Shown: in pieces, positions 5,187 through 64,000 of the stretch
How positions within the stretch are numbered: the first letter of the stretch is position 1
Layout of the letters: the number at the start of each line of letters is the position of its first letter
Assembly (NCBI RefSeq): GCF_007859935.1
Contig: NZ_SJPO01000002.1
Location: 310,001 to 374,000 of the forward strand
Length of the DNA stretch: 64,000 nucleotides
Direction: 5' to 3'
Source: Posidoniimonas polymericola
GTDB taxonomy: Bacteria; Planctomycetota; Planctomycetia; Pirellulales; Lacipirellulaceae
Notes under the pieces: generated by a model
The model's input: only the letters and a program-made list of their open reading frames with translations
What the model was told of the DNA's origin: nothing
Databases searched by the model: none
Position numbers and translations under genes: made by a program

Positions 5187-5815
5187 AGCAACGTACTCCA
5201 GAATTCCGAATGGATGGTTAGCGCCGGCTGAGCCAAGCGCGGTGGTTTTGAAAAGGGAACAGCGGCCTTGTGTTGCTCAAGCCTGACGGGTTTAGGCCTT
5301 GAAAGCAGAACTCGGGTCGCTGTGGTTGGCAGGGCGACTCACGCGGCGGTCCCAGCATTAGCGTCGTTGCTGAGACTTGCCGCGTGGCGGGCCGGCCCTC
5401 CCAAGGACGGCCCGCGGTGTCGCTCCTGTTGTCGTTCAAAACCCGGCTGGCGGTTGGGCCCGTGGTGGGCCTCAGCGAACCTGACCTGCCGGTGTGACCT
5501 CCGCCCCCTATCGCGTCAGTCGAGAAAGCCTTATTGCACGGGCTGTGCCAAACGCCCGGCGCCAGCGGGCAAGAAACGGGAAGAAAGTTGATGGGCGATC
5601 TCTAAGTCGCTTTGCACAGGCGTCTTACGGCGATTTCCCCTCGCGGGGCGCCAGCGCCGCTGGCGGGGCCGTTGGCGAGGGCGCATGGCGCCAACCTTAC
5701 AAAGCGTTTTACCCGCCCGTTAAGCTGCGTGGTTTGCGGTGAGCTGGGCGGTCGCGGCGCGCTAGCAGTGGTGTGGTTCAACGCGTGCCGGCACGCGCTG
5801 TAGTCGGCCGGCTGG
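5187..5815. other. intergenic region with GC-rich palindromes
   Basis: No gene is supported in these 629 bases. There are several inverted repeats: GCGGGCCG/CGGCCCGC (5387-5394 with 5408-5415), CGCCAGCG/CGCTGGCG around a single base (5649-5665), and TTGGCG/CGCCAA (5672-5677 with 5689-5694). It lies between a divergent hypothetical and the 3' end of the CDF transporter gene. Confidence 0.5.
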
Positions 5816-8119: not shown

Positions 8120-11100
8120 TCAGCGGGGTGTTTCGCGGCGGCGGAGGCTCTGCAGCTTGGACCGCAGGGCCGCGTTCGACGGGGCGAGCTGCGAGCCGTC
8201 GGGCGTGTCGGCCGGCGTATCGGAAGTGGCGGGCGACTCGGCGGCCGTAGTGGGGGAGGCCGTCGAAGGGGAGGCCGTCGAGCGGGCGGCCCCTTGCTCG
8301 GACACGGCCGCAGCGTGCTCGGGACGCGCCGCGGGGACGAACGGCGCGTCGGGGTCCGGCACGGCGAGGGCCTTGGGGGCGAAGCACCAGCCCAGCGGTC
8401 CGCACAAGATTGCCGGCAGCATCAGCAGGTCGCCTACCAATGCGGCGCCCAAGATCGTGATCATCAGCGTGCCGAACTGCTGCGTCGGGGTAAACGTGCT
8501 GGTGGCGAACACCGCCAGGCCGAGCCCGGCGATCAGCGTGGTCTGGACCATGGCGACCGCGCACCGCTCGTACGCGAGCCTGGTCGCGGTCTGGCGGTCG
8601 TGGCCCTCGCGGATGTGCCGGCGGAACCAGGTCAGGAAGTGGATGGTGTCGTCCACCGCGACGCCGAGCGCCACGCTGGCGGTCATCATGATGCCGATGT
8701 CGACCTTGATGCCGATCCAGCCGATCGCGCCGAACACGATGATGATCGGGAACACGTTGGGGATCATCGAGATGACGCCGCCGGCGATGTTGCGGAACAG
8801 CAGCATCATCACGCCCGCGATCAGCAGGGTCGCCCAGCCAATGCTCTCCCGCAGGCTGGCGAGCAGTTCGCGCTGCGTCTTGTAGACCAGCGGCACGATG
8901 CCGGTGTACACGGCGTGCAGCGAGGAGTGCCGGTCGAACGCGACGCTGGGGTGCGGCACGCCGGGCTCCTCGCCCGTTAGCGGGGCGATCACTTTCAGGT
9001 TCGGCGCCAGCTTCGCAAGCTCGGCGGCGGCCTGGGCCGTCGGGGCGACCACCGCGTCTTGGGCGGCGAGCGCTTTGAGGCTGGCGGCCCGCGTCTGTTC
9101 GTCGACCCCGGCGAGCTGGTTGAGGCTCAGCGGGCTGACCTTCATCCGGAGCTGGCGGATGCCGGGCCCGGTCTCGTCGAGCACGCTGATGAACATCCCG
9201 GCCGGCTCGCTCGGGTCGAGCGGCTGCTCGCCCTCGCCTTGGTAAACAATGCAGACCTTTGCGCCCCGCAGGCCGGCGCCCTCGTCGTGCAGCTGCTTGA
9301 CGAGTTGTGAGCGGAGCGTGTACGTGGTGAGCACCGGCTCGACCGCATCGCGGAGGTCGTTGACGAACTGGCCGTAGTCGATGTCCTTGAGCGCGGCGAC
9401 GCGGGCGCTAACCCGCCACAGCTCGCGGGGCTGCTCGCCCTCGGGGGTGATCTCCTCCCGCATGTACTCGACCAGCTGGCCGCGGTTTGCCTCGAGGATG
9501 CGGCTGGTGGTGGAGATCGCCCGGCTGTTGAAGATCCCGTTGCCCCCCTCCTCTTCGGGGCCGAACGACGCCGCCGAGAGGGCCCGGCTCACCTCGTCGA
9601 GCGACTCGACCCGGCGTTCCAGCCGCTGCGCCATGTGCATCCGCTCGTACATCGACATGCGGTACTGGCCGTCCGGTCCGACGGCGTCTTCGTCGGCCTG
9701 CTTGAGCTGGTCGGGGGTCAACGCGACGACCACCTCCATGGGCACCAGGTTGCCGAGGTGCTCCTCGAGCCACGCGTAATCGTGGATCAGGTCGACGTCC
9801 GGATCGAGCAGCTTGAGCAGCTGGACGGAGGTCTTGATCTGCGGCAGGCCGAGCGCGAGCAACGCCATGGCGCCGAAGCAGCCGGCCGTCACGAGGCCGT
9901 GCCGTGTGGTGACAAACGCCACGTACCGGTGGGCCCACGGCGGCAGCACGCCGCTGTGGCCACTGGAGTCGGGGTGGTCGTCCCCACGCAGCTTGGGCGG
10001 CGCGACGTGCAGGAAAACCGGCAGCACGGTGAACAGGATGGCGACCGTCACCATCACGCCAAGCGCGGTGAAGCCGCCGAACTTCATGATCGGCACGATG
10101 TCGCTACCCGCCAGCGAGCCGAGGCCGACCGCCGTGGTGAGCGCCGCCAGGGCGCACGGGCCCCAGCCGATGCGGACGGCGCGTTCGACGGCGCCGGCGA
10201 TGCCGTGCTCGTCACGCTCGTCGCGGTAGTAGTTGACCAAGTGGATCGCGCCCGCCAGGCCGAGCACGTACACCACCGCGGGCATCGAGAGCAGGATGGC
10301 GTCGACCGTGCCGATCCGCGGCCGGTCCATCTGCATCAGCCACGACTCCCAGACCACGCTGTAGTAGTAGACGCCGGCCAGGCTCGCGCCGGCGCTGATG
10401 CCGGCGACGGCAAACACGGCCAGCGTCGTCGCGACGCTGCGGAAGAACCAGAAGGCTAGCGACAACCCGACCACGCCGGAGAGGATCGCCAGCCGCCGCA
10501 GGGTCTTCTCGCCCTCGATATCGATCGTGATGTTGTCGACCGGCGGCCCGCCCAGGTGCAGCTGCTCGGACTTGACGCCGCACTCGTCGGCGGCGATCGA
10601 CTGCACCGCCGTAACGGCGGTGCGCATGTTGAGGTTGCTCTCCTGCGAGTAGCTCGACAAGTAAGCGATCAGGCAGGTGGTGCGGGAGTCGGCGCCGAGC
10701 GACTCGCCGTCGGCGCCGAGCTTGGGGGGGCCGATCAGGGCGCCCTCGAGCCGCTTGATGGCCGTGCGGGTCGGCAGCCGCGCCGGCTCTTGGGTGAGGG
10801 TCTCGATCATCTCCGGGCCGGTGATGACCTTGGAGAAGAGCGGCTTCCCCTCGACCTCGGCGGCGCGGAGCTTTGTGGCGAGCAGCCGCAGCTTGTCCGT
10901 GTCGCCCAGCGTGCAGCCGTCCCAGCTCGCCAGCACAAATTGGGCGCTGATGAAGTGGTCGCGGAACCACAAGAGGTCCTGCGACTCCGAGTAGCTAGCA
11001 GGCAGCCAGTCCGCGGCGTTGTTGCTGTTGGTCTTGATCGACTGCTTCACGCCACGGGGGATGAACCCCAGCAGGAAGCAGGTCGCAACAGCGATCAGGA

Positions 11101-11152: not shown

Positions 11153-11302
11153 GGGTTTGGCGTGGCGGGGCCTGGAGCGGCCCCGCCGATCGGGCGGGGC
11201 GTCGCAAACAACCAGCGTAAGCCTTTCGCCCGCGGGAGTCTACGCCGCTAGGGGCGGGTCGGCCTCCCACCGCGGCGGCCAGGTCCGCCTAACCCGCACC
11301 CC

Positions 11303-57298: not shown

Positions 57299-57663
57299 CC
57301 AGGGTTCTCCCATCGCCTGTAGCAAAGGATTCCCCACTCGCGTCTTGCAGACGCAGCCGGTGGCTGAGGTCGTGAGGGGCGCTACGTGCCATGAGGATTC
57401 TATCCACTGTCTGGCAGCGATTTAAATAGCATTGTCAAAAATACCAGGCGAATTGTATTGCTTCCTCATCTCCGCAGCAGTAATAATCGGGCGAGCTGCT
57501 GCTGATGCAGTAGCAGCGAGCGTAGTCTGCGTTGGCAGGCTCAGGAATGGAACGCAGGCCGGAACATACTCCCCATTGGGGGGGGGTGGCTGGGGCGTTC
57601 CTTTTTTTATGCCTGTCTCGGTTTATGCACGCTGAGCCACTTCGATCTTGGGAGATTTGTCTA
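57299..57663. other. divergent intergenic region
   Basis: No gene is supported in this 365-base stretch between the DUF1559 gene and the plus-strand PEP-CTERM gene. It contains a run of nine or more G residues and a T-run near 57580-57610, and an imperfect hairpin around CTGCTGCTGATGCAGTAGCAG. Promoters for both directions must lie here, but no convincing box pair was found. Confidence 0.4.
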
Positions 57664-58479
57664 ATGAGACGGCACGCTTTGATTCCCCTTCTACTCGCGG
57701 CTGCCGCGACCATCGCACTACCGGCCGCCCAGGCGGTGGTGCTCGAGGAGTTCCTCTTCGACGACCCAGGGGGCACCGCGATCGAGGCCGCGGCCAACAA
57801 CGCCGGCACCGGCAACCTGTTTGACGTCGACGCCGATCTAGTCGACGTGAAGACCAACGGCGCCGGGCAGCTCGACGCCTCGCTCAAGGCCAACTTCGAC
57901 TTCGGCACGACCTACGTCGACACCGCCGATTCGCTAACGGGCTCGTACTACGGCCTGATCGATTTCTCCTACGCCTTCGACGAGGCCACCTACACCACGG
58001 GAGAAGACGAAGAAATCCGGATTAGCCTGATCCAATTCGACCCCCGCTCGACCTTTGTCACCGGAGAAATTGAGATCACACGCAACAGCGCGACCGACGC
58101 GGTCATCTTCGGCAACGCCGTAGGGACCGGCGCGGTTGACATCGGCGAAACCGCCCTGCCACTCTCGGGCTCGATCATCGCCATTGTGGCGGCGAACCTG
58201 GACGCGGACCTGATGCAGGTGCACTACTCGCTTGACGGCGGGGCCTCTTTCACGACCCTTACTGGCGGCGAGCTTGACCCCGACCGCGGACTCGGCTCGC
58301 TGCGCCTGACGCTCAACAACGACTTCTCGGACGACGCGGTCCTCATCGACCGAATTGCCCTCTACGACGCCAACCCGTACCCGGGGCTGATCCCAAGCAT
58401 CGAGAACATCCCCGAGCCCTCGGCCGCGTGCCTGGCGTTGGTGATGACCTTGGCCGCCACCCGTCGCCGGCGCGGCTAG
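57664..58479 (+). CDS. PEP-CTERM sorting domain protein, 271 aa
   Basis: The ATG at 57664 has GGGAG upstream and gives a clean signal peptide (RRHALIPLLLAAAATIALPA, cleaved near AAQAVVL). The mature domain starts LEEFLFDDPGGTAIEAAANN, has EEIRISLIQFD and QVHYSLDGGASF, and ends RIALYDANPYPG. The EEFLFDD opening is homologous to both repeat units of the last gene in the window. It ends IPEPSAACLALVMTLAA then TRRRRG, a PEP-CTERM signal. First gene of a plus-strand cluster whose next member starts at 58489 or 58561. Confidence 0.87.
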   Translation: MRRHALIPLLLAAAATIALPAAQAVVLEEFLFDDPGGTAIEAAANNAGTGNLFDVDADLVDVKTNGAGQLDASLKANFDFGTTYVDTADSLTGSYYGLIDFSYAFDEATYTTGEDEEIRISLIQFDPRSTFVTGEIEITRNSATDAVIFGNAVGTGAVDIGETALPLSGSIIAIVAANLDADLMQVHYSLDGGASFTTLTGGELDPDRGLGSLRLTLNNDFSDDAVLIDRIALYDANPYPGLIPSIENIPEPSAACLALVMTLAATRRRRG

Positions 58480-58560: not shown

Positions 58561-60273
58561 ATGCACTCACGCCTCCCGTTACGATTGACCTTCGTTGCGC
58601 TGACGCTCTTGCTGAGCGCAGGTCCAAGCCCCTGCGCGGTCGGCAGGGAACTTGTAGTCGCAAAGCGTTTTGCGGTCACCAGTGGCCACCCGGCGGCGTC
58701 GTTCGCCGGATTAAAGGTGCTGCAGAGCGGCGGCAATGTCATCGACGCCGCGGTCACCACCTCGATGGCGATGGGGGTGGCGGCGCCCTGGGGGTCGGGC
58801 CTGGGGGGCAAGCTGGTTATGCTCTACCGCGAGGGCGACACCGGAAAGATTTACTGTGTCGAGGCGCTCAACGCCGCGCCGCAGAAGCTCGACACCGAAA
58901 CCTTCATCAACCTCCCCAGATCGCAGCGACGCCACGGCTACGCGTCGGTTTGCGTGCCGGGGCTGCCGGCCGGGCTCGAGCTGGCCCACCGTCGTTGGGG
59001 CGAACTTTCCTGGGAGGCGGTCGTGACGCCCGCGGCTGAGCTTGCTGAGGCCGGGGTCAACTTCGAACCGGAGATGCAGCCACTCTTTGAGCACAAGACC
59101 GAGCGGTTGAGCCTCAACCCTGCGGCCGCGCAGATGTATTTGTGCGAGAAACAGCTTCCGGCGCTGGGCAAGAAGCTGCGATTCCCCAAGCTGGCCCAGA
59201 CGCTCCGCGAGGTTGCGGCTCACGGGGCCGACGCCTTCTACCGGGGCGATGTCGCCCAGCGGATTGTGAAGGTCGCCCGGTCGAACGGCTCGGCGCTGAC
59301 GCTGGCGGACTTCGAGCAGTACCGGCCGCGCGTCATCGAGCCGTTGGAGCGGCGTTTTGGCGACTACGAGATCGCCACCCCGCCGCCTCCGACTACGGGC
59401 GGGATCACCGTGCTGGCCGCGCTCGGTGCGCTCGAGCAGGTCGATTGGGCCGGCCGCGACCTCCGCGACCTGGAGTCGATCGAGCAGCTCAGCCGGGTGC
59501 TGAACCAGCTCTACCCGCTGGTCGACCGCGGCATCGCGGACCACGTAAAGTCGCTCGATGCGGCCCGCCAGTTGTTGTCGACAGAAGGGATCGAGGCGAT
59601 CCGCAACGAGGCCCTCGCGGTCGGCGCCGCCGCGAGCCGGGTTGGGCAGTCCGCGGGCGACGATCTCGAGGGCACCCTGGACGACACGGCGGACGCCAGC
59701 ACCTCGCACCTCGTGGTCGCCGACTCCGAGGGCAACGTGGCGTGCGTCACCCAGTCGCTCAGCTACCATTTCGGCGCGAGCGTCGTGGCGGCAGACACCG
59801 GCGTGCTCCTCAACAACAGCATGTGCAACTTCAACACCCGCAACCTGGATTCGGTCAACGCGATCGCGCCAGGCAAGCGGCCTCGCAGCACCATCGCGCC
59901 GGTGATCGTCATGCGCGACAACGAGGTCCGGCTCGCGTTTGGCATCCCGGGCGGGCAGCGGATTGCGTCGACGACCGCGCTGATCTTGCTCGACACGCTG
60001 CGCAAGGGCCACAGCCTGTCCGAAGCCTTGATCGACTGGCGTTACCACCTTCGGCGGCCGGTTGAGCCGGGCCAGCCGCACAACCAAATTGACCTCGAGG
60101 AGGGCGCGCCCGAGGACCTGCGGGAGCGGCTTGCCGCGCGTGGCTGGCGGTCCGCGGAGTGGCGATGCGACGGCAGCTACTTCGGCGGCGGGAACGGCGT
60201 CGAGTACCTGCCGGACGGGACGCTGGCGGCGGTCGCCGATCCGCGGCGCACGAACGACGCGATGGGACAGTAG
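58561..60273 (+). CDS. gamma-glutamyltransferase family Ntn hydrolase, altered substrate pocket
   Basis: A secreted member of the GGT fold (570 residues; an in-frame ATG at 58489 is an alternative). A signal peptide (RLPLRLTFVALTLLLSAG) precedes GHPAASFAGLKVLQSGGNVI, the family opening. The maturation site is before Thr381 in ASTSHLVVADSEGN, so the autoprocessing nucleophile is present. Compared by eye with E. coli GGT, the residues that hold glutamate differ: Arg114 aligns with Leu (EALNAAP), Asn411 with Ser, Gln430 with Ser and Asp433 with Asn (LNNSMCNF). It may therefore cleave something other than gamma-glutamyl compounds. Second gene of the cluster, 7 bases before the M14 gene. Confidence 0.88.
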   Translation: MHSRLPLRLTFVALTLLLSAGPSPCAVGRELVVAKRFAVTSGHPAASFAGLKVLQSGGNVIDAAVTTSMAMGVAAPWGSGLGGKLVMLYREGDTGKIYCVEALNAAPQKLDTETFINLPRSQRRHGYASVCVPGLPAGLELAHRRWGELSWEAVVTPAAELAEAGVNFEPEMQPLFEHKTERLSLNPAAAQMYLCEKQLPALGKKLRFPKLAQTLREVAAHGADAFYRGDVAQRIVKVARSNGSALTLADFEQYRPRVIEPLERRFGDYEIATPPPPTTGGITVLAALGALEQVDWAGRDLRDLESIEQLSRVLNQLYPLVDRGIADHVKSLDAARQLLSTEGIEAIRNEALAVGAAASRVGQSAGDDLEGTLDDTADASTSHLVVADSEGNVACVTQSLSYHFGASVVAADTGVLLNNSMCNFNTRNLDSVNAIAPGKRPRSTIAPVIVMRDNEVRLAFGIPGGQRIASTTALILLDTLRKGHSLSEALIDWRYHLRRPVEPGQPHNQIDLEEGAPEDLRERLAARGWRSAEWRCDGSYFGGGNGVEYLPDGTLAAVADPRRTNDAMGQ

Positions 60274-60280
60274 GCAAACG

Positions 60281-61834
60281 ATGGCGGAACGAATCGCAAC
60301 CCGCGGCGCCGTGCGGCGTGGCTCTGCAGCAGGCGTCGCCGCCTTGCTGCTGGCGGCCTCGCGTGCCTGTCTGGCGTTGTCGCTCTCGGCCGATTTTGAC
60401 AGCGCGTCGCTCGACATTGCGGCCTCCGCGGTCATCGGTGGGGACGTCACACTCGTTGGGCGGGACAACTACAACACCGGCGACTGGAAGTGGCTCTATT
60501 TCCGGGCCGACGGCGTGCAGTCGACGTCGCCGGTGTTCTCGATCGGCGACAACTTTGAAACCGGCGCCAGCAGCCTCAATGGCCACGCGATGGTCTACAG
60601 TTACGACCAACAGGACTGGTTCTTCTTCGACAACAACGTTCGCAACGCCGCCAGCGGGACGTTCCGCTTCTGGAACTCCACTCCGTTCGCCCAGGACGGG
60701 GTGTATGTCGCGTACGGCCTGCCCTACCCTGCCGGGCGCGCCGCGTCGCACTCGCTCAGCCTGGCCAGTTCGCCGTGGGTGACCGACCTGCCGTCGTCCG
60801 TGGGTCTGCTAACGGTGGGGCAATCGCCCGGCGGTGTAGATGACCTTGGCCGCGCCATCGCGCCGAGCGACCTGTACGGCTACCGCGTGCACGACCCGTC
60901 TGGGGCGGCAGACCGCGCTACTGTCGTGCTAGCGAGCGGCGTTCACGCAAACGAGACGCTCGGCAACTTCGTGCTCGAGGGCCTGGTCGACTTCTTGATC
61001 GGCGATTCGCTGGAGGCCGCGCTGCTGCGAAAAGCCGCCGATTTCGCCGTCTACCCGCTGGCTAATCCCGACGGGCGCCTGGCCGGATACAATCGGAGCA
61101 CGGTCGCAAACGAGTCGCAGGACCCTAACCGCTACTGGGACTCGCCCTCCTACGGGGGAATCCCAGAGCTACAGACCATCGGTAGCGCAATGCTGGCAGA
61201 CACCGCGGAGTCGGCTGATTACCTGATCGACTTCCATTCCACGGTGAATGGCAAGGCCGGCCACTACGCGTTCGTCCACCCCGATATGCAGTCGGACCCG
61301 CTGTGGCAGAGCTTCCTCCAGCACGAGCCCACGGTCGAGACCCGCAACGCCGTATTGTCCGACGACACGCTGCCCAAGTTCGGCCGCGACGAACTCGGCG
61401 CCGCGTTCTCCATCACCTTTGAGACCGAGTTCCTGGCGGGCGAGAACATCGACCGCTACCTCGCGATCGGCGAGAGTTGGGGACACGCCCTGGCCGAGTC
61501 GTTGGTCGTGTTCGCCGACCTGAATCTCGATGGCGAACTGAGCCGGGCCGACTGGGCGCTGCTGATCGCCGCCGCCGAGACCGACCTCAGCAGCCTCTCG
61601 CCGATCGACGCCTACCTGCACGGCGACCTCGACGGCGACGGCCTTAACAGCATCCAAGACTTTTCGCTATTCAAGAACGCCTACGAAAGCGCGCACGGGC
61701 TGGGATCCCTGGCCAAACTCATCGCGGCGCCCGAGCCGTCAGCCGGCGTGTCGTTTGTCCTGTCCGTGAGCCTCCTTGCCACCACCCGAGTGCCGATCTT
61801 CGACCGGAGCCGAATCCTATGCACCGCAACTTGA
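60281..61834 (+). CDS. M14-type zinc carboxypeptidase with dockerin and PEP-CTERM-like tail
   Basis: A 517-residue exported metallopeptidase. After a signal peptide (RRGSAAGVAALLLAASRACL) there is an N-terminal jelly-roll-like domain, then an M14 fold: the zinc pair GVHANE (HxxE), the YPLANPDGR and DPNRYWDSP substrate motifs, the third zinc ligand in DFHST, and the catalytic Glu in TFETEF. A dockerin-like repeat pair follows (DLNLDGELSRADWALL; DLDGDGLNSIQDFSLF). The tail APEPSAGVSFVLSVSLLATTR resembles a PEP-CTERM signal, with 14 more residues after it. Its last 16 bases overlap the start of the next gene in another frame, so translation is likely coupled. Confidence 0.85.
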   Translation: MAERIATRGAVRRGSAAGVAALLLAASRACLALSLSADFDSASLDIAASAVIGGDVTLVGRDNYNTGDWKWLYFRADGVQSTSPVFSIGDNFETGASSLNGHAMVYSYDQQDWFFFDNNVRNAASGTFRFWNSTPFAQDGVYVAYGLPYPAGRAASHSLSLASSPWVTDLPSSVGLLTVGQSPGGVDDLGRAIAPSDLYGYRVHDPSGAADRATVVLASGVHANETLGNFVLEGLVDFLIGDSLEAALLRKAADFAVYPLANPDGRLAGYNRSTVANESQDPNRYWDSPSYGGIPELQTIGSAMLADTAESADYLIDFHSTVNGKAGHYAFVHPDMQSDPLWQSFLQHEPTVETRNAVLSDDTLPKFGRDELGAAFSITFETEFLAGENIDRYLAIGESWGHALAESLVVFADLNLDGELSRADWALLIAAAETDLSSLSPIDAYLHGDLDGDGLNSIQDFSLFKNAYESAHGLGSLAKLIAAPEPSAGVSFVLSVSLLATTRVPIFDRSRILCTAT

Positions 61835-64000
61835 CGTTCACTACCTTCACCACTGCCGGTCTGCTGATGCTGGTGGCGCTGTCCCCGCCGGCGGACGCTG
61901 TCGACCTCGAGGCGTTCGAATTCAACGACCCCAACTTGACTGAGTTGACTGCCGCGGCGAACACGGCCAACCCGGGCAACAGCTGGGTCAGCTCTGAGAC
62001 CAACGGCTTCTCGGACATGACGCCGTCGCGCGTCATTTCGGGTTCTTACCAGATTTTGAAGGAGCAGGGTGGCCTGGCGACCAACCACCTGCAGATCGAC
62101 AACGTGACCAGCGGCTCGGTCTTCCTCGTGGCGCGGATGTCGGAGTGGGCGTTCCGCGAAGATTCGCCAGAAGAGGCAGAGGAAGAGGTCCGATTCGGTT
62201 TCCTCAATGACGATTCCGGGACGGGCGGCAGCACGATCACCGCCGAGATGATCATCCGCCGCGAGGCGTCCGGCGGCATCGAGCTGGCAGGCCGGGCCCT
62301 CGGCCCTGGGGCGACCGCGGTTAGCAACACGGCCCCACTCGCCACGGATCAGATGTCGCCGTTCACTGCGGTGCTCGCGGTGGACCTCGACTCGTCGACC
62401 TACAAGGTCTATTACAAGGACGGCTCAAATCCGTCCCAGGTGCTGGGGATTGGATCGATGTCGCCTTCGCGGGCGGCCAATTCCGTCCGACTGGCTGCAA
62501 ATAACTTTTTCGCGAACGGGAACCTGGTAGGTATCGGGCCCTCGGACATCATCGAGGAGGAGTTCAATATTGACCGCCTCGCGTTGGCGACCACCAACCC
62601 GCTAACCGATCTGCTGACGGTCAGCATCAACCGCGCCACCGGCGCGATGACGCTGGTTAACAGCACCGGCCAGGCGTTGCCGACGCTGCTGTCGTACTCG
62701 ATTGAGTCGGCTGCCGGTGCGCTCGACGCGAGCGGCTGGAAGGCGGTCGCCGGCAATTACGACAGCGCCGGCAATGGCAGTGTCGACATCGACGGGACCT
62801 GGAGTGTCGACACGACCACCGCCTACGTCCTTTCCGAGTCGGCCAACACGGCCAGCGGAGGAGCCCTCGCAGCCGGCCAGAGCGTCGTGCTCAACCAAAC
62901 CGGCGACAGCGTATGGCTGCAGTCGCCGATCGAAGACATCGCGGTGACCCTCACCTTCGCAGGCGGCGTCAGCCGCACGGCGGACGTCATGTTCATGGGC
63001 AATGGCGGCAGCCGATTTGCTCTGGGAGACCTCAACTTTGATGGGCAGGTAACCGCCGCCGACTGGAGCACCCTGATCATGTTCAACGAGACCGACCTGA
63101 CCAGCCTGTCGCAGGTCGAGGCGTACCGTCGGGGCGACCTCGACGCCGACGGCGTCAACAGCATCCTGGACATCGGCGCCTTCAAGTCCGCCTACGACAC
63201 CGCCAACGGCTCCGGCGCATTCGCCGCGATGATCGCCGGCGTCCCGGAACCAGCCGCCACGCTGCTCGCAATCGGGGCGTTAACGCCACTCGCCCTGAGA
63301 CGCCGAACGGCGTCGCTGCTGGTGCTGCTGACGCTCGCCCTCGCCGGCCGCGGTGTCCAGGCCGGGATCCTCGAAGACTTCACCTTCAACGAGGTCGACG
63401 GCACGGCCCTCAATGAGGCGACCAACCTGATCAACCCGGACAACACCTGGACCGAAAACACGACCGACCTGACGCCCACAGCGGTCCTCGACAACAAGCT
63501 GCGGGTCACCAAGTTGAACGACTCGCTGGCTAGTAACTACCTGGACATTTCGAATGTCACGTCGGGCAAAGTTTGGCTCGTGGCCGAGATCTCCGGCTGG
63601 CACTTCTCATCGATTGTCGGACCGACGGAGTTCGACTCTGGCGAACTTGAAGAGTTCCGCTTCGACTTCCTCGACAACGACGACAACTCCGGCAGCACCA
63701 TCACTGCCGAGATGGAGATCGAGCGCAAGGCTGACGGCAGTATTGTGCTGCAGGGGCAGGCGCTCGGCGGCGGCAGCACCGTGTCGGGCACGACGCTGGG
63801 ACTGTCGCGGTCGACGCCGTTCACGATGGTCCTGGAATACGACGCAACGGCCAATGCCTACGAGATTTTCGGCAAGGACGGCGCCGGCTCGTTCGAGAGC
63901 TACGGCGCCGGCACAACCTCCGCCACCCGCGACGCCAACAGTGTCCGGTTCGCGGTTAACAACAGCATGGGCGGGACCGGCGAGTTCTTCGACCTCGACC
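61819..64000 (+). CDS. tandem two-unit dockerin/PEP-CTERM protein (polyprotein-like), 3' end outside window
   Basis: From an ATG at 61819, 727 codons stay open to the window edge. Unit 1: signal peptide (MHRNLTFTTFTTAGLLMLVAL to a PPADAVDLEAFEF region), beta-sandwich domain, dockerin pair at residues about 403-465 (DLNFDGQVTAADWSTL; DLDADGVNSILDIGAF), then VPEPAATLLAIGALTPLAL with a basic RRR at 494-496, a full PEP-CTERM signal. Directly after it, with no stop, TASLLVLLTLALAGRGVQA looks like a second signal peptide cleaved before Gly516. Unit 2 (GILEDFTFNEVDGTALNEAT onward) is homologous to unit 1. Its start overlaps the M14 gene by 16 bases. A mutated stop or an assembly error must be excluded. 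Confidence 0.85.
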   Translation, partial: MHRNLTFTTFTTAGLLMLVALSPPADAVDLEAFEFNDPNLTELTAAANTANPGNSWVSSETNGFSDMTPSRVISGSYQILKEQGGLATNHLQIDNVTSGSVFLVARMSEWAFREDSPEEAEEEVRFGFLNDDSGTGGSTITAEMIIRREASGGIELAGRALGPGATAVSNTAPLATDQMSPFTAVLAVDLDSSTYKVYYKDGSNPSQVLGIGSMSPSRAANSVRLAANNFFANGNLVGIGPSDIIEEEFNIDRLALATTNPLTDLLTVSINRATGAMTLVNSTGQALPTLLSYSIESAAGALDASGWKAVAGNYDSAGNGSVDIDGTWSVDTTTAYVLSESANTASGGALAAGQSVVLNQTGDSVWLQSPIEDIAVTLTFAGGVSRTADVMFMGNGGSRFALGDLNFDGQVTAADWSTLIMFNETDLTSLSQVEAYRRGDLDADGVNSILDIGAFKSAYDTANGSGAFAAMIAGVPEPAATLLAIGALTPLALRRRTASLLVLLTLALAGRGVQAGILEDFTFNEVDGTALNEATNLINPDNTWTENTTDLTPTAVLDNKLRVTKLNDSLASNYLDISNVTSGKVWLVAEISGWHFSSIVGPTEFDSGELEEFRFDFLDNDDNSGSTITAEMEIERKADGSIVLQGQALGGGSTVSGTTLGLSRSTPFTMVLEYDATANAYEIFGKDGAGSFESYGAGTTSATRDANSVRFAVNNSMGGTGEFFDLD

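Follow-up and report, generated by a model that had tools for sequence, protein, structure and literature searches.

The PEP-CTERM sorting signal is defined as a C-terminal one. What, then, does such a signal do when it stands in the middle of an open reading frame of Posidoniimonas polymericola, with a second signal peptide-like segment and a further complete unit directly behind it? The frame, at 61819–63999 on the plus strand, is open over 727 codons and reaches the edge of the window (the whole 64,000-nucleotide stretch of DNA that was analysed). The first-pass annotation had read VPEP at residues 475–478, RRR at 494–496 and VQA at 513–515 in this frame; all three are present, and no stop codon falls between residues 496 and 500.

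Layout of the gene and its junction signals

Followed past position 64000, the frame ends at a TGA (L009:3730–3732, which is C2:374729–374731 in the genome), giving a gene of 970 codons with 731 bases outside the window and its end at C2:374731. The 970-residue product consists of two full units, both of which carry a lectin-like domain, then a further module, a dockerin and a PEP-CTERM tail. Homology between the units, claimed earlier for their first domains, is borne out by 36% identity in an alignment of 423 columns (E 1e-50). The features within the window are as follows.

60062–61834, plus strand: M14 zinc carboxypeptidase gene with a PEP-CTERM-like tail, a separate upstream gene (PF00246, 35.1 bits)
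61819–64000, plus strand: two-unit PEP-CTERM polyprotein gene, in-window part (727 of 970 codons; sequence)
61819–61899, plus strand: unit 1 N-terminal signal peptide, residues 1–27, ADA before V28 (motif; aligned with the N-termini of 10 relatives)
61900–62589, plus strand: unit 1 lectin-like beta-sandwich, residues ~28–257 (structure model; Foldseek)
62590–63018, plus strand: unit 1 second beta-rich module, residues ~258–400, common to many paralogues (alignment, structure model)
63022–63237, plus strand: unit 1 dockerin type I region, residues 402–473 (PF00404)
63241–63252, plus strand: internal VPEP, residues 475–478, putative exosortase site (P476, E477 and P478 invariant in 11/11)
63253–63297, plus strand: internal PEP-CTERM hydrophobic helix, residues 479–493 (sequence, curated junction set)
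63298–63306, plus strand: RRR, residues 494–496, end of sorting signal 1 and n-region of signal 2 (R495 and R496 invariant in 11/11)
63307–63363, plus strand: internal signal-peptide-like helix and VQA, residues 497–515, putative signal peptidase cut before G516 (A515 at least 90% conserved)
63364–64000, plus strand: unit 2 lectin-like domain, homologous to unit 1 (alignment, structure model)

The M14 gene and the start of the polyprotein gene overlap by 16 bases in different frames. Beyond the window lie the second module and dockerin of unit 2 and a terminal APEP tail (residues 945–948, with PEP at 946–948); the product ends with this second dockerin region and APEPGCLVLAGLAGGVLARQRRVARR. 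Both signals run from a PEP motif through a hydrophobic helix to a basic cluster; that of unit 2 lies at the protein end, while that of unit 1 lies about 490 residues before it and so is not at the extreme C-terminus. The segment behind the first signal has the parts of a signal peptide, with RRRT as n-region, ASLLVLLTLALA at residues 498–509 as core and GRGVQA as cleavage region, in which the small-x-small site VQA is V-x-A and not A-x-A.

Dockerin type I (PF00404) scored 25.1 bits over the whole protein against a cut-off of 22.9, in two stretches, the better at residues 402–452. For the lectin-like domain of unit 1, the best Foldseek matches were L-type lectin domains (E 4.4e-6, target TM ~0.55), from a model whose mean pLDDT is only 62.7. 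Toxin binding domains were also matched, as carriers of a common beta-sandwich fold. The model is uninformative at the junction, where pLDDT is below 50 for residues 470–515. Profile models of the PEP-CTERM signal did not recover it in the window protein: TIGR02595 gave no match at E up to 10, and PF07589 reached 11.9 bits, under its cut-off of 20.7, with its best stretch terminal. Among seven proteins tested, five exceeded the TIGR02595 cut-off and scored best over an internal stretch, among them two direct orthologues (L047, residues 447–469, 23.5 bits for the whole protein; L050, residues 464–486, 28.1 bits); the congener orthologue L045, and also L090, fell under it. PF07589 exceeded its cut-off with an internal best stretch in three of six. 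The genome encodes three exosortases by PF09721 above cut-off, two of which pass the XrtU model (97.4 and 82.9 bits, cut-off 40). The open frame, the order of its motifs, their conservation and the presence of exosortase genes are read directly from the sequences.

Orthologues and a control at the same locus

In-frame fused orthologues, at 40–59% identity, occur in ten further genomes that span six genera when P. polymericola is counted; fused examples that carry a name come from Bythopirellula polymerisocia, Botrimarina colliarenosi, Botrimarina hoheduenensis and a Planctomycetales MAG. The closest full-length relatives are all fused (G001, of the same genus, 61%; G011, 58%; G018, 49%; G006, 48%), the other fused copies being those of G019, G034, G023, G024, G029 and G004. 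Alignment of the 11 fused copies shows the internal Pro-Glu-Pro and two Arg to be invariant. Because it is conserved in many related planctomycetes, the polyprotein layout looks real, and previously unremarked. Among 14 orthologous copies, 11 are fused and three are split into two genes; the relatives are thus not uniformly separate, and the fusion is not essential. Across the junction region of the 11 fused copies, frame +1 holds at least one stop in all 11 and frame +2 in seven, and the frame in use holds none.

Elsewhere we found 54 tandem pairs of separate PEP-CTERM genes, for which a stop and an ATG were part of the selection, so that only their relative frames are informative (17, 16 and 21 pairs in frames 0, 1 and 2). 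For this reason we made a boundary control at the locus itself. An upstream PEP-CTERM gene is present in 11 of the 14 copies, ten of them M14 peptidases; it is fused to unit 1 in none of the 11, and units 1 and 2 are fused in nine of the same 11. As weak evidence, dN/dS in the hairpin (0.50/1.23, over only 40 codons) lies between that of unit 1 (0.26/0.89) and that of unit 2 (0.41/0.64). Junction lengths modulo three carry no weight, since both ends were taken in frame.

The first-pass annotation had suggested that recombination between tandem paralogues at the arginine codons made the gene. As a recent origin this is not favoured by the orthologue tree, which has a midpoint root only and needs one or two changes (support for one change 65/57 in the joined tree). 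The fused form is found in each main clade, and the linker is about 20–40 residues long in eight of the 11 fused copies; the shortening of an old fusion, the presumed direction of change, is for this reason the simpler history.

Internal junctions across the phylum

The search for further junctions covered the phylum Planctomycetota. From 96 raw sites we curated 74 internal junctions in 158 loci; the loci were chosen by similarity to a PEP-CTERM query and for long frames, and these figures are therefore counts and not rates. For about 16 of the 22 sites left out, the sole failing was against a rough dockerin pattern, and they look genuine (L058, L072 and L103 among them); L070, L082 on the minus strand, L086 on the plus strand and L144 are either noise or not strong enough, L082 10101–14000 is doubtful, and one L107 entry is a shifted duplicate. 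Related genes carry up to three complete units end to end, and the P. polymericola genome itself has at least nine open reading frames with an internal junction.

In every one of the 74 curated junctions the loop between the two helices carries a net charge of +2 to +8; in 43 it is short, at 3–12 residues. Internal PEP helices match terminal ones in length (16.1, s.d. 1.2, versus 16.4, s.d. 2.2, n=127 terminal). Because counting by the PEP motif alone is circular, we also ran a hydrophobicity search that ignored it, blind in its detection step only and missing the known junctions of L046, L049 and L050; PEP preceded 80 of the 83 hairpins found, and the three misses comprise one PEP hairpin counted twice and two that read VPEG and VPEH. 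An A-x-A site follows the helix in 58/74 internal signal-peptide-like segments, 41/64 N-terminal controls, 8/28 multipass helices and 19/74 PEP helices, a comparison inflated in part by Ala-rich sequence. Loop charge, retention of PEP, the A-x-A excess over multipass helices and the three exosortases bear out the earlier description of an internal PEP-CTERM signal followed by a second signal-peptide-like helix, and the short loops fit its proposal that one Arg cluster is used twice.

Within the 43 genomes of the family, both helices occur without an intervening stop in at least about 111 of the matches listed, from at least about 27 genomes, and with a stop in at least six. Other families of the order have internal junctions too, as do two genomes whose placement goes no further than membership of this phylum; beyond the family, single-unit frames made up most of the PEP-CTERM ones seen. 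A junction profile matched 75 of 199 phylum genomes, most of the matches listed spanning the PEP half only. Among the loci fetched after that search, no internal junction of a convincing kind was seen in L196 to L202, and L195 is truncated at a contig end.

Proposed processing, its alternatives and its meaning

The best reading, and in our judgement the likely one from sequence evidence, is that the product is a secreted polyprotein cut by exosortase and signal peptidase. Unit 1 would be exported by its own signal peptide up to the PEP-CTERM helix, which would halt transfer and leave the Arg cluster on the cytoplasmic side. The second helix, with the same cluster as n-region, would start another round of export that takes unit 2 out of the cytoplasm, and a two-helix hairpin would remain in the inner membrane with an extracytoplasmic unit at each end. 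An exosortase (of the three in the genome two are XrtU) would cut unit 1 at VPEP and hand it on, and signal peptidase I would cut at VQA and free unit 2, at whose end stands a further PEP-CTERM signal. One translation product would then give equal amounts of two proteins, or three in other members, each bearing a dockerin and probably lectin-like. We infer the topology, both cuts, the equal stoichiometry and the surface location.

A conserved fusion and a membrane hairpin would also suit a protein that is never cut, in which the two helices anchor both units as one membrane-tethered, two-armed protein. Anchoring, however, needs neither PEP nor A-x-A, yet PEP is kept in nearly every hairpin and A-x-A is far commoner at the junctions than in multipass or PEP control helices; a PEP-CTERM-like tail is, moreover, still found at the end of unit 2. 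We regard this uncut form as unlikely. That the missing stop codon is incidental, unit 2 arising mainly from internal translation initiation, we regard as decidedly unlikely. Separate initiation is possible at 30 of the 74 junctions, where an in-frame start with a basic n-region is kept (24 of them with loops above 12 residues), some starts stand behind a Shine-Dalgarno-like stretch, such as the ATG in G034 (L022/L050), and separate tandem pairs are common. The other 44 lack a start codon from which the following unit could be made with a basic-led signal peptide of its own, and no usable start exists in 37 of the 43 loops of up to 12 residues, including that of P. polymericola, where a GTG is the sole in-frame ATG, GTG or TTG in the stretch from the Arg cluster to the beginning of the second helix; it lies within that helix and lacks a basic n-region.

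Tandem PEP-CTERM genes are also the obvious raw material for a chance recent fusion without selected function, and three orthologous copies are indeed separate; a sequencing error at the stop would give the same picture. Fusion in independent genomes of six genera, named isolates among them, and the invariant PEP and Arg pair contradict both, and we reject this explanation as highly improbable.

With somewhat less assurance than for the single gene, we lean towards a lineage-wide device, with many members per genome: in Planctomycetota, a sorting-signal helix and a signal-peptide helix joined by one arginine loop may be a standard hinge, the cutting point of two- and three-unit secreted polyproteins, at which the exosortase and signal peptidase flanking the hairpin would fix in what ratio and order partner surface proteins are released.

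Rhizobial FbcH (cytochrome b/c1) is a bacterial polyprotein processed by signal peptidase. The proteins described here share with it a single translation product, an internal signal peptide and a putative cut that frees a second extracytoplasmic protein, but here the upstream partner would itself be sorted, its helix being a sorting signal with a dedicated protease, and there are up to three units. Bacteria are not, to our knowledge, known to produce a set of surface proteins by cutting up a polyprotein; we also know of no internal LPXTG signal followed by a signal peptide. Sortase is an enzyme unrelated to exosortase. LPXTG signals follow the same logic of motif, helix and basic tail, a comparison made by Haft et al. 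2006 (PMC1569441). Compared with known PEP-CTERM/exosortase sorting (TIGR02595, PF07589; exosortase U, NF033780), Pro-Glu-Pro, helix, basic cluster, N-terminal signal peptide and exosortase genes are alike, whereas the polyprotein signal stands inside the chain, with another export signal immediately after it and then one more complete unit. The claim that such use is undescribed stands in so far as our literature searches found no internal PEP-CTERM of the polyprotein kind; it needs qualifying in that the same paper, which gives fewer than 10 residues after the signal in 87% of proteins, mentions a few long-tailed cases and suggests that they are possibly non-functional.

If the conserved internal form is what it appears to be, exosortase would be able to work without a free C-terminal tail, and the enzyme could be assayed directly, with a single precursor yielding two products whose sizes can be predicted. 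Such proteins may be misread by annotation and by predictors of sorting signals, and some large secreted planctomycete proteins would really be several proteins. The arrangement looks like a previously unremarked route to several surface proteins from one translation product.

Two secreted units in one reading frame

Our reading of the source genome (6.26 Mb; the window is C2:310001-374000) reproduced the frame described in the first-pass annotation, which starts with ATG at 61819, runs for 727 codons and is open at the window edge, together with its motifs: VPEP at residues 475-478, a hydrophobic stretch, RRR at 494-496 and VQA at 513-515. Beyond the window edge the gene ends with TGA after 970 codons. 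Ahead of this stop come another dockerin region and another PEP-CTERM-like tail, and the polyprotein gene therefore consists of two complete secreted units. The similarity noticed between them is also real, as unit 2 is homologous to unit 1 (36% identity over 423 alignment columns). They are separated by a junction, or hairpin, of an internal PEP-CTERM helix, an Arg-rich loop and a signal-peptide-like helix.

A structure model was built for unit 1 plus the opening domain of unit 2. It gives the first domain in both units as a beta-sandwich with closest resemblance to L-type lectins; because the mean pLDDT of the model is 62.7, we regard the lectin-like fold as suggestive. Each lectin-like domain is followed by a second beta module and then a dockerin region, and the dockerins are backed by Pfam in two stretches (25.1 bits versus a cut-off of 22.9). 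The upstream neighbour, an M14 carboxypeptidase gene, closes with a PEP-CTERM-like tail of its own and shares 16 bases with the start of the polyprotein gene, read in a different frame. Inspection by eye of the surroundings identified:

57532-58479 of the window, on the upstream side of the polyprotein gene: PEP-CTERM protein of one unit, its N-terminal domain (VLEEFLFDDPGGT) similar in appearance
3738-10198 of L009, the locus continuing past the window: outer-membrane efflux protein gene (minus strand), then adaptor and RND-type pump (plus strand)

Orthologues and the wider class of junctions

Matches to the window protein at E <= 0.001 were found in 61 of the 97 genomes searched. Counting as fused a full-length match, or a match in pieces inside one open frame, we identified in-frame fused copies in G001 (same genus), G011, G018, G006, G019, G034, G023, G024, G029 and G004, and thus in six genera including that of the window. 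Comparison with orthologous loci, proposed as a check on the internal junction, upheld it for most copies; 3 of the 14 are split, including both copies of Adhaeretor mobilis, each present as separate genes. Named relatives with a fused copy are Bythopirellula polymerisocia, Botrimarina colliarenosi, Botrimarina hoheduenensis and one Planctomycetales MAG. By genome-search taxonomy these genomes and that of Adhaeretor fall in the window's own family, and titles in the literature assign Botrimarina and Bythopirellula to Lacipirellulaceae. In an alignment of 11 rows at 40-59% identity to the window protein, no change is seen in P476, E477, P478, R495 or R496, and A515 is kept in at least 90% of rows, with variable helix letters between the invariant residues. 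In a midpoint-rooted tree the split copies are scattered among fused ones, a pattern that a single old fusion followed by one or two losses is enough to explain. In two split copies, L054 from G004 and L056 from Adhaeretor mobilis, unit 2 differs in its N-terminal stretch (QTFTDLASWQAA), which makes an exchange of domains at this locus probable.

The internal PEP-CTERM junction is a class rather than a single gene. The 158 loci examined contain 96 raw internal PEP sites, and a filter for dockerin, PEP and second helix retains 74 of them; since locus selection relied on similarity to a single query and on long frames, these counts are not rates. Complete ORFs with curated junctions are 839-1570 codons long and carry two or three units, and two ORFs found later have 640 and 1610 codons. 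In all 74 junctions the loop between the helices carries a net charge of +2 to +8, as expected of a cytoplasmic turn, and the internal PEP helix has the same length as in terminal signals. A PEP-blind scan for paired hydrophobic peaks in 85 long ORFs, at loci pre-chosen by a PEP-CTERM query, recovered 83 hairpins, 80 of them with PEP, and missed the known junctions L046, L049 and L050. The three without PEP comprise one PEP hairpin counted again at a shifted position and two with one residue changed, VPEG and VPEH (L064 near residue 956 and L080 near residue 531), possibly decaying or variant exosortase sites. The curated signal models reached their cut-offs with the best stretch internal in 5 of 7 proteins for TIGR02595 and 3 of 6 for PF07589; the window protein itself reached neither cut-off.

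At least nine ORFs of this kind lie in the window's genome (the window's on C2, two on C1, and others on C6, C17, C4, C8, C13 and C11). Junctions of the same form occur in other families of the order (G055 and G071 in f14, G076 in f19, G095 in f2) and in G173 (f76) and G255 (f95), both placed only in the same phylum. Three-unit polyproteins (L058, L059, L060, L061, L062, L092 and others) have N-terminal domains that differ between units, the last unit often beginning with a motif like DRxYxFGDD.

Fusion against separate tandem genes

Separate genes in tandem are frequent and are not fused by default: of 255 genes that end in a PEP-CTERM, 54 have a separate PEP-CTERM gene close behind, and the second starts of these 54 pairs are spread over three frames (17, 16 and 21). 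In L090 (two plus-strand ORFs, with ends at 5706 and 8796), L059 (end at 11295) and L057 (end at 10204), the next unit of separate tandem PEP-CTERM genes lies in the same frame past the stop.

The best control for selection on fusion is the upstream boundary at the polyprotein locus itself. Immediately before unit 1, our filter detected a PEP-CTERM gene in 11 of the 14 copies and none in L048, L052 and L054; ten, including the window's, are M14 peptidases and one is M12 metallopeptidase-like, below cut-off. This boundary is fused in none of the 11 (each has a stop; ten also change frame, and L055 alone does not), and the boundary between units 1 and 2 is fused in 9 of the same 11. Between G000 and G001, dN and dS are 0.50 and 1.23 for the hairpin (40 aligned codons), 0.26 and 0.89 for unit 1, and 0.41 and 0.64 for unit 2; the hairpin ratio lies between those of the units and is weak evidence on selection.

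A separate start for unit 2 was considered at every junction. In 44 of 74, no ATG, GTG or TTG lies where a basic n-region would remain ahead of the second helix, and this applies to 37 of the 43 loops of up to 12 residues, the window's included. The 30 junctions with such a start include 24 with longer loops. This looks like a path, probably running from split genes, through fusion with a linker and leftover start, to fusion without linker.

Predicted processing and prior descriptions

Exosortase is predicted to cut at the internal PEP on one side of the hairpin, and signal peptidase at a small-x-small site on the other; we think that both cuts would be made. The main rival is that the hairpin stays uncut as a two-armed anchor. 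Of 74 junctions, 58 have A-x-A behind the second helix, versus 41 of 64 N-terminal controls, 8 of 28 multipass helices and 19 of 74 PEP helices; the window's own site is V-x-A, not A-x-A. The window's genome encodes three exosortases, two of type XrtU. Among bacterial polyproteins, FbcH offers an earlier case of an internal signal peptide.

Among the open-licence papers listed on PEP-CTERM and exosortase, judged mostly by title and abstract opening and in part from longer lists, none describes an internal PEP-CTERM polyprotein. For Haft et al. 2006 (PMC1569441) the signal is by definition C-terminal, and they suggest that the few long-tailed cases may be non-functional. Because the internal sites are conserved, we would argue otherwise for this lineage.
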